DNA of 50,084 nt, taken from Candidatus Azobacteroides sp. Lineage in GTDB: Bacteria > Bacteroidota > Bacteroidia > Bacteroidales > Azobacteroidaceae. Numbering within the stretch: the stretch's first letter is position 1; each line of letters opens with the position of its first letter. The position numbers and the translations under genes are program-made. This document shows, piece by piece, positions 25,181 through 28,531 of this stretch. The stretch is taken from the NCBI GenBank assembly GCA_009778655.1, contig WRFZ01000175.1, forward strand, positions 1 through 50,084. Reading direction: 5' to 3'. The notes below the pieces were generated by a model that saw only the letters and a program-made list of their open reading frames with translations, made no database searches and was not told the DNA's origin.

Positions 25181-25188
25181 TATCTTTG
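25181..25188 (+). promoter_or_regulatory. -7 promoter element for the flx-like operon
   Basis: TATCTTTG matches the -7 consensus and precedes the first gene by 74 nt. The predicted leader contains a small TGCG/CGCA hairpin; no known riboswitch was recognised in it. Confidence 0.6.
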
Positions 25189-25262
25189 TAGCTCTGTGCG
25201 GATATTATTTCGCAGGAAAGGTAAAAATTTACTTTATAATTAGTCATTATAATTAATGAAAT

Positions 25263-25742
25263 ATGTCTAACGAATTTGAACCTAAAGTATTAGCCTTTGT
25301 ATGCAATTGGTGTACTTATACCGGAGCCGATTTGACCGGTACGAGTCGCATTAAATATGCTTCGAATGTGAAAATCCTTCGTCTTCCATGTACGGGCCGA
25401 ATTGATTTTTTGCTGATACTTAAAGCATTTGCTACCGGAATGGATGGCGTAATCGTTTCGGGTTGTCATCCCAACGATTGCCACTACACTTCCGGTAATT
25501 TTCATGCCCGTCGCCGGTGGATTTTGTTCCGAAGTTTACTCGACTTTTTGGGAATAGACACCCGGCGAATCCGTTTCTCTTGGGTATCGGCGGCCGAAGG
25601 GGCGAAATGGGCGGAAGTCGTAAACGAAACAGTCGCTCACTTACGGGAATTAGGTCCTTATACCGAATATCATAAGGTTGCCGATTTTTTGTCTGAAAAC
25701 CCGACGAAAGAAAAGAAAGAAACGGAGGTACTACATGAATGA
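25263..25742 (+). CDS. MvhD/FlxD-like iron-sulfur electron-transfer subunit
   Basis: A 159-residue protein of the methyl-viologen-reducing hydrogenase delta (MvhD) family, which carries an iron-sulfur cluster and passes electrons to HdrA-type flavoproteins. All family cysteines are present: CNWC (C14, C17), LPCTGR (C43), SGCHPNDCHY (C68, C73). YTGADLTGTSRI and WVSAAEGAKWAEVV are further landmarks. It is first in a four-gene operon whose other products match FlxC, FlxB and FlxA, so FlxD is the better comparison than a hydrogenase subunit. No hydrogenase or HdrA gene is in the window. Its last 8 bp overlap the next gene. Confidence 0.87.
   Translation: MSNEFEPKVLAFVCNWCTYTGADLTGTSRIKYASNVKILRLPCTGRIDFLLILKAFATGMDGVIVSGCHPNDCHYTSGNFHARRRWILFRSLLDFLGIDTRRIRFSWVSAAEGAKWAEVVNETVAHLRELGPYTEYHKVADFLSENPTKEKKETEVLHE
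25724..25729 (+). promoter_or_regulatory. strong Shine-Dalgarno site for the second flx-like gene
   Basis: GGAGGT lies 5 nt before the ATG at 25735, inside the 3' end of the preceding coding region. Good Shine-Dalgarno sites are uncommon in Bacteroidota. This one fixes the start at 25735 instead of the upstream in-frame codon at 25678. Confidence 0.65.
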
Positions 25743-26523
25743 TATAATAAGTCAAGCCCGATCCTTATTGGAAAATAAGACCGTTGATATCTTTATCGGA
25801 TACGAAAAAGGCACACGCGGGCCGCGACCGGCTTTTATTTCTAAGTCGGAAGATGCCGACAAATTGATTTTCGATGAAAGCTGTTCGGGAAATCTGGCGG
25901 TTTATCTGACACGGAAAGATTTAACGGAAGGGAAAAAAGTCGGAATATCAGCTTCTTACTATGCACTGAAAAATCTGGCGCTTCTATTTGACGAATGTCA
26001 ATTGAAAGAAGAGAATCTTCGGGTAATTGCATTTTCGGGGAATGGCGATCTCAAACTGCTTCAATCTGCCGAAGAAATAAAACAACACGTGGAAGGAATG
26101 CCGGCGCCGGTAAATCCGGCTGTGGAAGAGCAAATTCGGAAAATCGAAGCGATGACCCTTTCCGAACGCTGGGCGTTTTGGACGGAAGAATTATCGAGAT
26201 GCTTCAAATGTTACGCTTGTCGCTGGGCGTGTCCGATGTGTTATTGTACGAAATGTATCGTCGAAGTCAATCGTCCGCAGTGGGTACAACCTTGGGCCGG
26301 TACTTTAACTAATATCGAGTGGCAAATCAATCGCGTGATGCACATGGCGGGACGTTGTTCCGAATGCGGCGCTTGCGGAGCCGCCTGTCCGTTGGGGATT
26401 CCCATTTATTTGTTGAACAAGCGGATGGCGGATCAAGTGAAAGAAAACTTCGGAAAACCGGGCGAAGAAGGTAATGTGCTATCTACATTTAAACCGGATG
26501 ATAAAGAAAATTTTATTGTGTAA
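25735..26523 (+). CDS. FlxC-like 4Fe-4S dicluster protein
   Basis: A 262-residue cytosolic iron-sulfur protein. The N-terminal 150 residues resemble no domain I can name. The C-terminal half holds two ferredoxin-type sites: CFKCYACRWAC (C156, C159, C162, C166) with extra cysteines in PMCYCTKC (C169, C171, C174), and CSECGACGAACP (C208, C211, C214, C218). The extra cysteines suggest a more complex first centre. Position between MvhD-like and AsrA/HydB-like genes matches FlxC of flavin oxidoreductase complexes. The ATG at 25735 was chosen from its Shine-Dalgarno site. Electron flow within the complex is inferred. Confidence 0.8.
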   Translation: MNDIISQARSLLENKTVDIFIGYEKGTRGPRPAFISKSEDADKLIFDESCSGNLAVYLTRKDLTEGKKVGISASYYALKNLALLFDECQLKEENLRVIAFSGNGDLKLLQSAEEIKQHVEGMPAPVNPAVEEQIRKIEAMTLSERWAFWTEELSRCFKCYACRWACPMCYCTKCIVEVNRPQWVQPWAGTLTNIEWQINRVMHMAGRCSECGACGAACPLGIPIYLLNKRMADQVKENFGKPGEEGNVLSTFKPDDKENFIV

Positions 26524-26526
26524 TCT

Positions 26527-27540
26527 ATGGAACGAAAATATATCAATCGCCATTCGCTGATGAATTGCTTGAAAAAAGTGCAAGCAGACGGCGTTTCTCT
26601 TTACGCGCCGGTCGCCCGCGGGGAACAAACGGATTTCCGATTCATTACCTCCGTTGACGAAATATCGTTCGGTCACATTCAAACCACGCGTTCGGCTAAA
26701 GCCGTCGTTTTTCCCTGTACCGAAAAACTGTTTTCTTACAAAAAAGAAAAAAACGACGTCAAACTCCGGGATTATGATGCGGACGAATTGCCCGACATAT
26801 TAGTCTTCGGAATTCATCCCTGCGATGCCGTCGGGTTCGGCCCGTTGGCCGGTATTTTCAACTGGGATACGCAGGATAAACCCTATAACGAACGTCGAAA
26901 ACGGATTACGCTGATTTCTTTAGCTTGCAACCGAGCCGATGAATATTGCTTCTGCACTTCGGTAGGCGGCGGTCCGGGAAATACCGAAGGAAGCGATATA
27001 CAACTGACTCCCGTTAAAGAGGACGGTTATTTGGTTGAAATCATTACCGATAAAGGAAACGAATGGTACGAAAAATACGGCTCTTTTTTTGAAAATGCAG
27101 CGGAAGACATTCGTAAAGAAGATTATTTGGTTGAAATTCCGGTTAAATTCGACATGGAAGACATCATCCGAAAAGTGTCGGGCGTATTTGAAAACGATAC
27201 TTGGCGATTGCAATCCGAACGGTGCATCGGTTGCGGCGCCTGCGCTTTTGTTTGTCCTACCTGCGCTTGTTTTGATATTCAAGAAGATGCTCACGGAAAA
27301 ACGGGAAACCGGATTCGTTGTTGGGATTCCTGCGGATTTGCCCTCTTTACGTTGCATACCTCCGGACATAATCCGCGTCCGAAGCAAAGCCAACGATGGC
27401 GTCAACGCATTATGCACAAATTCTCGTACATGCCCGAACGCCTGTCGGTAGTAGGATGTACCGGTTGCGGCCGTTGTTCGCGCGCCTGCCCGGTTGATAT
27501 GAATCTCAGTGATAATTTAAAAATGCTCAATTTATTATGA
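26527..27540 (+). CDS. FlxB-like (AsrA/HydB family) 4Fe-4S protein
   Basis: A 337-residue cytosolic electron-transfer protein of the family including anaerobic sulfite reductase subunit A and sulfhydrogenase beta. Landmarks are FGIHPCDAVGFGPL (about 95-108) and LACNRADEYCFCTSVGGGP near 138-156. The first cluster site is CIGCGACAFVCPTCACFD (about 232-249). Next comes RCWDSCGFALFTLHTSGHNP, and a second cluster site CTGCGRCSRACP lies near 317. It probably passes electrons between the FAD subunit encoded next and the iron-sulfur subunits. It starts 3 bp after the FlxC-like stop and overlaps the next gene by 4 bp. No catalytic sulfite reductase or hydrogenase subunit is near. Confidence 0.86.
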   Translation: MERKYINRHSLMNCLKKVQADGVSLYAPVARGEQTDFRFITSVDEISFGHIQTTRSAKAVVFPCTEKLFSYKKEKNDVKLRDYDADELPDILVFGIHPCDAVGFGPLAGIFNWDTQDKPYNERRKRITLISLACNRADEYCFCTSVGGGPGNTEGSDIQLTPVKEDGYLVEIITDKGNEWYEKYGSFFENAAEDIRKEDYLVEIPVKFDMEDIIRKVSGVFENDTWRLQSERCIGCGACAFVCPTCACFDIQEDAHGKTGNRIRCWDSCGFALFTLHTSGHNPRPKQSQRWRQRIMHKFSYMPERLSVVGCTGCGRCSRACPVDMNLSDNLKMLNLL

Positions 27541-28370
27541 ATAATATTTATCTTCCTTATCTCATGACTATTGAGAAAATCACGGAGGAAGCCCCCGGAG
27601 TAAAAACCTTTCGGTTAAAATTTAAAGATGAAGGAGAAGCGCAAGCATTTAGATTCAAAGCGGGACAATTTGCCGAATATTCTTCATTCGGCGAAGGCGA
27701 ATGTACGTTTTGCATTGCTTCTTCACCCACTCGCGAAGGATATGTGGAATGTACCTTCCGTGAAGCCGGCAAAGTAACGTCGGCGCTTACCAAAATGGAA
27801 GAGGGACAAACGATGGGCTTTCGAGGCCCATTCGGAAATACCTTCCCAATGGACGAATGGAAAGGCAAAAACCTGTTGTTTATTGCCGGCGGGATTGCTT
27901 TGCCTCCCATGCGTTGCGTCATTTGGAATGCGCTGGATACACGGGATAATTTCAAAAATATCCAAATACTTTACGGCGCCAAATCGGTTGCCGATTTAGT
28001 GTATAAACACGAACTGAAAGAATGGGAAGACCGTCCGGATGTAAAATTCACCGTAACGGTTGATCCCGGGGGCGAAACGCCCGACTGGAAAGGTGAAATC
28101 GGATTTATTCCTTCCGTATTGGAAAAACTCGCTCCTTCGGCGGAAAATACCATCGCTATTGTTTGCGGTCCTCCGATAATGATTAAATTATCCTTCCCGG
28201 TACTGGATAAGTTAGGATTTAAACCCGAAAATATCTATACTACACTTGAAAACCGCATGAAGTGCGGGGTCGGAAAATGCGGACGATGTAATGTCGGGAA
28301 AATGTACGTTTGCAAAGACGGCCCCGTATTTTCAAAAGAGCAATTGGACACTTTACCGCCGGAATACTGA
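27537..28370 (+). CDS. FlxA-like FAD/NAD(P)-binding oxidoreductase with 2Fe-2S site
   Basis: A 277-residue flavoprotein of the ferredoxin-NADP reductase fold, like AsrB, sulfhydrogenase gamma and FlxA. The FAD domain is at about 8-105 (FKAGQFAEYS, CIASSPT), and the NAD(P) domain begins at LLFIAGGIALPPMR near 120. A C-terminal DHODB-type 2Fe-2S motif is CGVGKCGRCNVG followed by VCKDGP (about 241-262). It would be the NAD(P)H entry or exit point of the complex. Overlap with the preceding gene is ATGA. It ends the operon; the next elements are an inverted repeat and a terminator. Confidence 0.87.
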   Translation: MNNIYLPYLMTIEKITEEAPGVKTFRLKFKDEGEAQAFRFKAGQFAEYSSFGEGECTFCIASSPTREGYVECTFREAGKVTSALTKMEEGQTMGFRGPFGNTFPMDEWKGKNLLFIAGGIALPPMRCVIWNALDTRDNFKNIQILYGAKSVADLVYKHELKEWEDRPDVKFTVTVDPGGETPDWKGEIGFIPSVLEKLAPSAENTIAIVCGPPIMIKLSFPVLDKLGFKPENIYTTLENRMKCGVGKCGRCNVGKMYVCKDGPVFSKEQLDTLPPEY

Positions 28371-28492: not shown

Positions 28493-28531
28493 TAAAAATC
28501 CGATTTTTTGTCTTTTCAAATCGGATTTTTA
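28493..28531. terminator. bidirectional terminator hairpin
   Basis: A perfect 14-bp stem, TAAAAATCCGATTT (28493-28506) and AAATCGGATTTTTA (28518-28531), with an 11-nt loop and T runs on both strands. On plus it would end the flx-like operon; on minus it lies 18 bp after the stop of a possible 40-residue gene. Confidence 0.75.

Follow-up and report, generated by a model that had tools for sequence, protein, structure and literature searches.

The flxDCBA operon described here is very probably the NAD(P)H-input arm of a FlxABCD–HdrABC flavin-based electron-bifurcating complex, the Hdr half of which is encoded in trans. Support for the complex comes from the gene set, the relatedness of the proteins, their co-occurrence, the conservation of cluster ligands and the ancestral linkage of the genes. 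The operon lies in a stretch of 50,084 nucleotides (the window), contig C175 of a 182-contig, 2.91-Mb MAG of Candidatus Azobacteroides (G000; 90% complete, 1.6% contamination). Comparisons draw on a survey of 198 genomes of the order Bacteroidales, in which FlxC occurs in 24 genomes from 21 families; the co-occurrence statistics of this survey ignore phylogeny.

The flx operon of the window

Four contiguous open reading frames on the plus strand (25263–28370) form a tight operon, flxD-flxC-flxB-flxA, and candidate transcription signals lie on either side.

25181..25188 (+), TAnnTTTG box TATCTTTG, a consensus match and putative Bacteroidota −7 promoter, 82 nt before the flxD ATG
25263..25742 (+), flxD, 159 aa, MvhD/FlpD-like [2Fe-2S] subunit, the predicted electron link to HdrA
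25735..26523 (+), flxC, 262 aa, with two C-terminal iron–sulfur cluster motifs, akin to the C-terminal part of FdhB
26527..27540 (+), flxB, 337 aa, iron–sulfur subunit resembling sulfhydrogenase HydB and AsrA
27537..28370 (+), flxA, 277 aa, FAD/NAD(P)H/[2Fe-2S] reductase resembling sulfhydrogenase HydG and AsrB
28493..28531 (+), approximate, A/T-rich hairpin with A and T runs on its flanks, about 120 bp after flxA

The overlaps between reading frames, 8 nt at the first junction and 4 nt at the last, are compatible with a single flxDCBA transcript. For flxC we chose the ATG at 25735, which overlaps the flxD stop, as it does in an independent Azobacteroides MAG (G193), over the TTG at 25678 given by the ORF tool.

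A preliminary description of this DNA had named the products FlxD, FlxC, FlxB and FlxA, and family and PDB matches support these names. FlxD is full length (PF02662, FlpD/MvhD; E = 1.3e-48 in the Pfam scan) and its nearest PDB chain is 7bkb_F (E = 2.5e-47), the MvhD of an Fdh–HdrABC complex. FlxC, for which the Pfam and NCBIfam scans returned no specific family model, ends in a 4Fe-4S dicluster region, and its C-terminal half aligns with FdhB (7bkb_E; E = 2.3e-16). FlxB matches Fer4_22, NF040833 (E = 1.1e-51) and 9nez_B (E = 3.3e-44), and FlxA matches PF00175, PF10418, PF00970 and 9nez_C (E = 3.1e-60); for none of the four products did the two scans return an Flx-specific model.

The first motif of FlxC holds seven cysteines (C156, C159, C162, C166, C169, C171 and C174), including the three extra ones to which the preliminary description drew attention. 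With the four of the second motif they make up a cluster region of eleven cysteines, all invariant in 22 of 22 aligned sequences from the order, and the spacing of the seven is that of FdhB in 7bkb. We rejected the idea that the extra cysteines are a novelty because they are invariant in the 22 FlxC proteins and present in solved FdhB proteins; judged by these alignments, they are a family trait and no peculiarity of the window protein. A structure prediction for FlxC with two sequences as input had a pLDDT of 43, too low for the model to be of use.

The operon had also been described as closed by a promoter and a terminator, which we would soften to plausible for both: the first is a consensus box, with no good −33 box seen in the region upstream of flxD, and the second is a hairpin (17-nt arms, 94% complementary; folding energy −13.1 kcal/mol) that is not among the matches of a generic terminator scan. 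It is a possible terminator, maybe a bidirectional one. The generic terminator scan of the window gave 11 matches against a background of 5.7 ± 2.8, moderately above background and mostly inside genes, and the corresponding promoter scan gave 10 against 7.3 ± 3.0, near background. Just upstream of flxD, between 24896 and 25132, an imperfect inverted repeat of 53 nt is accompanied by two pairs of short direct repeats; one of these pairs has a 20-base core with no other copy in the window. The region may be a small mobile or palindromic element.

A catalytic subunit of hydrogenase or sulfite reductase is absent beside the operon, and within the window there are no HdrA or HdrB/CCG matches except FlxD itself, which bears out the earlier statement that no hdr gene is near.

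The Hdr half on two other contigs

The step from that local absence to an operon "without HdrABC" fails at the level of the genome. A search of the same assembly places HdrA on contig C182 and HdrC–HdrB on contig C160, with the cluster cysteines kept.

C182, L011 7667–9649 (minus), hdrA, 660 aa, full length
C160, L012 7130–7717, hdrC, with two 4Cys motifs
C160, L012 7745–8587, hdrB, adjoining hdrC, with two CCG (noncubane cluster) motifs
C160, L012 8599–9957, rmuC, after hdrB

HdrA scores 778 bits to HdrA2, and its residues 3–659 align with methanogen HdrA (5odc_A; E = 4.4e-210). The FAD domain and the ferredoxin-like C-terminal clusters are present and no MvhD is fused to the protein, which makes FlxD necessary as a separate subunit. 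The gene stands alone between rplS (a 117-aa ORF) and a gene for a TPR protein (both our own readings). In HdrB, all ten cysteines that align with the solved HdrB are kept, and they are invariant in 20 sequences. An extra cysteine, C145, four residues before the ligand C149, is also invariant in the 20 Bacteroidales HdrBs, and the solved HdrB used as alignment reference (8rvv_B) has no cysteine at that position. The seven flx and hdr genes of the window genome sit at three loci, and hdr–flx clustering is absent here.

Proposed electron flow

In the scheme that we favour, electrons from NAD(P)H would enter at the FAD of FlxA, pass from its [2Fe-2S] cluster to the iron–sulfur clusters of FlxB and then FlxC, and reach the [2Fe-2S] cluster of FlxD, which would dock on HdrA. 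The FAD of HdrA would then split them: one electron would reach ferredoxin by way of the C-terminal HdrA clusters, and the other would pass HdrC, enter the two noncubane clusters in HdrB and end on a disulfide-like acceptor. We infer the physical assembly of the seven products and the direction of flow; either NADH or NADPH may be the donor, and the scheme assumes co-regulation across the three loci.

We know of no disulfide substrate of HdrB in Bacteroidales, and no constant neighbour of the cluster that might be a candidate acceptor was seen in the relatives. A dihydroorotate-dehydrogenase-like gene (PRK07565) adjoins the hdr/flx cluster in three genomes only, and its product is a possible redox partner.

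L074 7129–8163, PRK07565 gene
L066 2195–3229, PRK07565 gene
L067 4147–5184, PRK07565 gene

Nitrogenase is the feature behind the genus name Azobacteroides, and the complex might mainly feed its reduced ferredoxin to that enzyme, as the presence of both nifH and Flx–Hdr in G091, probably A. pseudotrichonymphae CfP2, would allow. We consider this quite unlikely and reject nitrogenase as the ferredoxin sink, because NifH matches are absent from the window genome and from G193, and because the association that would be expected is missing: NifH is found in 2 of the 24 FlxC genomes and in 13 of the 174 others.

Co-occurrence and gene order in the order

HdrB is present in 24 of 24 FlxC genomes, as against a comparable HdrB in 5 of 174 others (Fisher P = 2e-26, phylogeny ignored). 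HdrA at 867 bits or more and FlxA at E ≤ 1.4e-56 likewise occur in all 24, and none of the 198 genomes has FlxC without HdrA and HdrB. The genes hdrB-hdrA-flxD-flxC are collinear in 16 of these 24 genomes, within contig reach; wherever the surroundings were read, hdrC and flxB/flxA are in the cluster too, which gives the complete order hdrC-hdrB-hdrA-flxD-flxC-flxB-flxA. Two of the remaining genomes have a complex I operon in mid-cluster, contig ends interrupt the cluster in two more, and in four (the window genome, G193, G057 and G091) the genes are scattered in part or altogether. The HdrA of the window genome is 70–87% identical to most flx-linked HdrAs and 58–60% identical to two distant ones, compared with at most 46% for HdrAs outside flx clusters. 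Clustering is typical of the Flx–Hdr family and is no requirement for the enzyme; dispersal does not exclude membership.

The preliminary description had left two options, HdrA encoded elsewhere or another partner altogether. On the second, Flx would work with something other than HdrABC and the Hdr genes would belong to an unrelated system, a reading that gains from the lack of linkage between flx and hdr in the window genome. It is nevertheless very improbable, given that the genome's own HdrA and HdrB are orthologous to those inside hdrCBA-flxDCBA clusters and that all seven genes are kept even in the 1.1-Mb A. pseudotrichonymphae; the 24 of 24 co-occurrence of FlxC with Hdr, together with linkage in most relatives, leads us to reject it. 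The first option was the right one. The description itself had named the finding that would tell against its account, namely hdrABC genes at other sites of the genome and their joint presence with flx in relatives; the assembly and the survey contain just this.

Break-up of the operon in Azobacteroides

G193 has the same three-way split into flx, hdrA and hdrCB. In G091, of the same genus and with a chromosome of 1,114,206 bases, only flxA stands apart, at a distance of 120 kb from the other genes. All seven Flx–Hdr genes and the complex I genes nuoB to nuoN are retained in these 1.1 Mb, with both sets split; nuoLMN lie far from nuoB–K (L057, L088, L089 and L098). Operon splitting is general in the genus, and the genes are kept.

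The gene rmuC follows hdrB in the window genome and precedes hdrA in G193 (L061 4279–5631), the two copies being 81% identical. These positions suggest an ancestral hdrC-hdrB-rmuC-hdrA string that was later broken, stepwise and at different places. A true genome with a single cluster, falsely separated by assembly or binning of a fragmented MAG (182 contigs, completeness and contamination as above), is hardly credible: each of the three pieces has other genes on both sides, the window extends about 25 kb to one side of flx and 22 kb to the other, the nearer contig end is 20 kb away from hdrA, hdrCB is within 5 kb of one end yet has rmuC and one more gene after it, the independent G193 is split identically, and the rmuC positions in the two MAGs fit stepwise break-up.

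The Hdr half of the FlxABCD–HdrABC complex thus lies elsewhere in the window genome because an operon that is intact in most relatives broke up here. A single-contig reading can mislead in such a case, in which the partner is in the genome and the operon has come apart. The 1.1-Mb A. pseudotrichonymphae also indicates which redox modules survive as the genomes of termite-gut symbionts shrink, namely the Flx–Hdr and complex I genes.

A possible link to complex I

In several relatives the hdr–flx cluster lies next to genes of complex I. In G069 (L084), nuoA-B-C-D-H-I-J-K-L-M-N comes straight after the seven hdr–flx genes; in G129 (L074) the PRK07565 gene comes after the cluster, and nuoA–D and nuoH after that. 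The nuo operon stands between hdrA and flxD in G094 (L065), and the same two junctions occur on two contigs of G196 (L068/L069). In G100 (L085/L086), hdrC and nuo share a contig, nuo being some 10 kb past hdrC. A rough post hoc estimate for linkage in four of 23 genomes is P of about 2e-4, or 2e-3 when each family counts once. NuoD is found in 23 of the 24 FlxC genomes (G057 is the lone exception) against 53 of 174 others (P = 4e-10, phylogeny ignored).

The window genome has its own set of these genes:

Contig C180, nuoB to nuoN, including a nuoC–nuoD fusion and preceded by a NuoA-like reading frame

NuoD and NuoL are present in the window genome, G091 and G193, and NuoF (TIGR01959, E ≤ 1e-20) is unmatched in all three (90% complete for the first, 99% for both others). 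NuoF is above the cut-off in 13 of the 24 FlxC genomes, several times beside a second NuoD-like gene, so FlxC genomes do not all lack NuoEFG. The complex I (NUO) of Bacteroides fragilis is without NuoEFG and its electron donor is described as unknown (PMC7002350); this is the state of the window genome and its two genus relatives, in which NuoF is unmatched.

We tentatively suggest, as a lead that could well prove wrong, that in those Bacteroidales that carry it Flx–HdrABC provides the electron input to the NuoEFG-less complex I, through ferredoxin or, less likely, by direct docking. Electrons would pass from NAD(P)H through Flx–Hdr to reduced ferredoxin and from there to the 11-subunit complex I, with menaquinone reduction and ion pumping. 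Flx–Hdr cannot be the sole donor, since FlxC is unmatched in 53 genomes of the order that have NuoD, and others must exist. We found no paper tying Flx–Hdr to Nuo in Bacteroidales in the open-access literature, which leaves out most subscription journals. If the suggestion is true, it names one electron source for a complex I without its NADH module, and it makes testable which donor reduces the NuoEFG-less complex I in Bacteroidales.

Comparison with known systems

FlxB and FlxA resemble the subunits of sulfhydrogenase HydBG (9nez) and AsrAB, with HydB/AsrA as counterparts of FlxB and HydG/AsrB as counterparts of FlxA. Both proteins score far below all the curated equivalog cut-offs of those families: 175.8 bits against 750 (HydB) and 150.4 against 323 (AsrA) for FlxB, and 206.5 against 650 (HydG) and 194.8 against 288.6 (AsrB) for FlxA.

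In the FdhAB–MvhD–HdrABC complex of methanogens (7bkb and related structures), MvhD, HdrA, HdrB and HdrC are homologous to FlxD, HdrA, HdrB and HdrC. The C-terminal cluster region of the FdhB of that complex is homologous to FlxC and has the seven-cysteine spacing in common with it, but FlxC corresponds to that C-terminal part only, and the donor of the methanogen complex is formate or F420H2 instead of NAD(P)H.

Ramos et al. 2015 is reportedly the original Flx paper. The FlxABCD–HdrABC systems of Desulfovibrio (Nitratidesulfovibrio) vulgaris and Bilophila wadsworthia, to which we liken ours by description, have the same seven-gene content. The gene order reported for Bilophila is hdrCBA-flxDCBA, as in the relatives of the window genome, and the bifurcation scheme was proposed in sulfate reducers, with DsrC as the acceptor in N. 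vulgaris (PMC12125255). The window genome differs from these bacteria in its three loci, and several Bacteroidales differ from the Desulfovibrio and Bilophila system in that the cluster adjoins an operon for an 11-subunit complex I. The flx operon of the window is very probably a further case of FlxABCD–HdrABC, with a dispersed gene arrangement.
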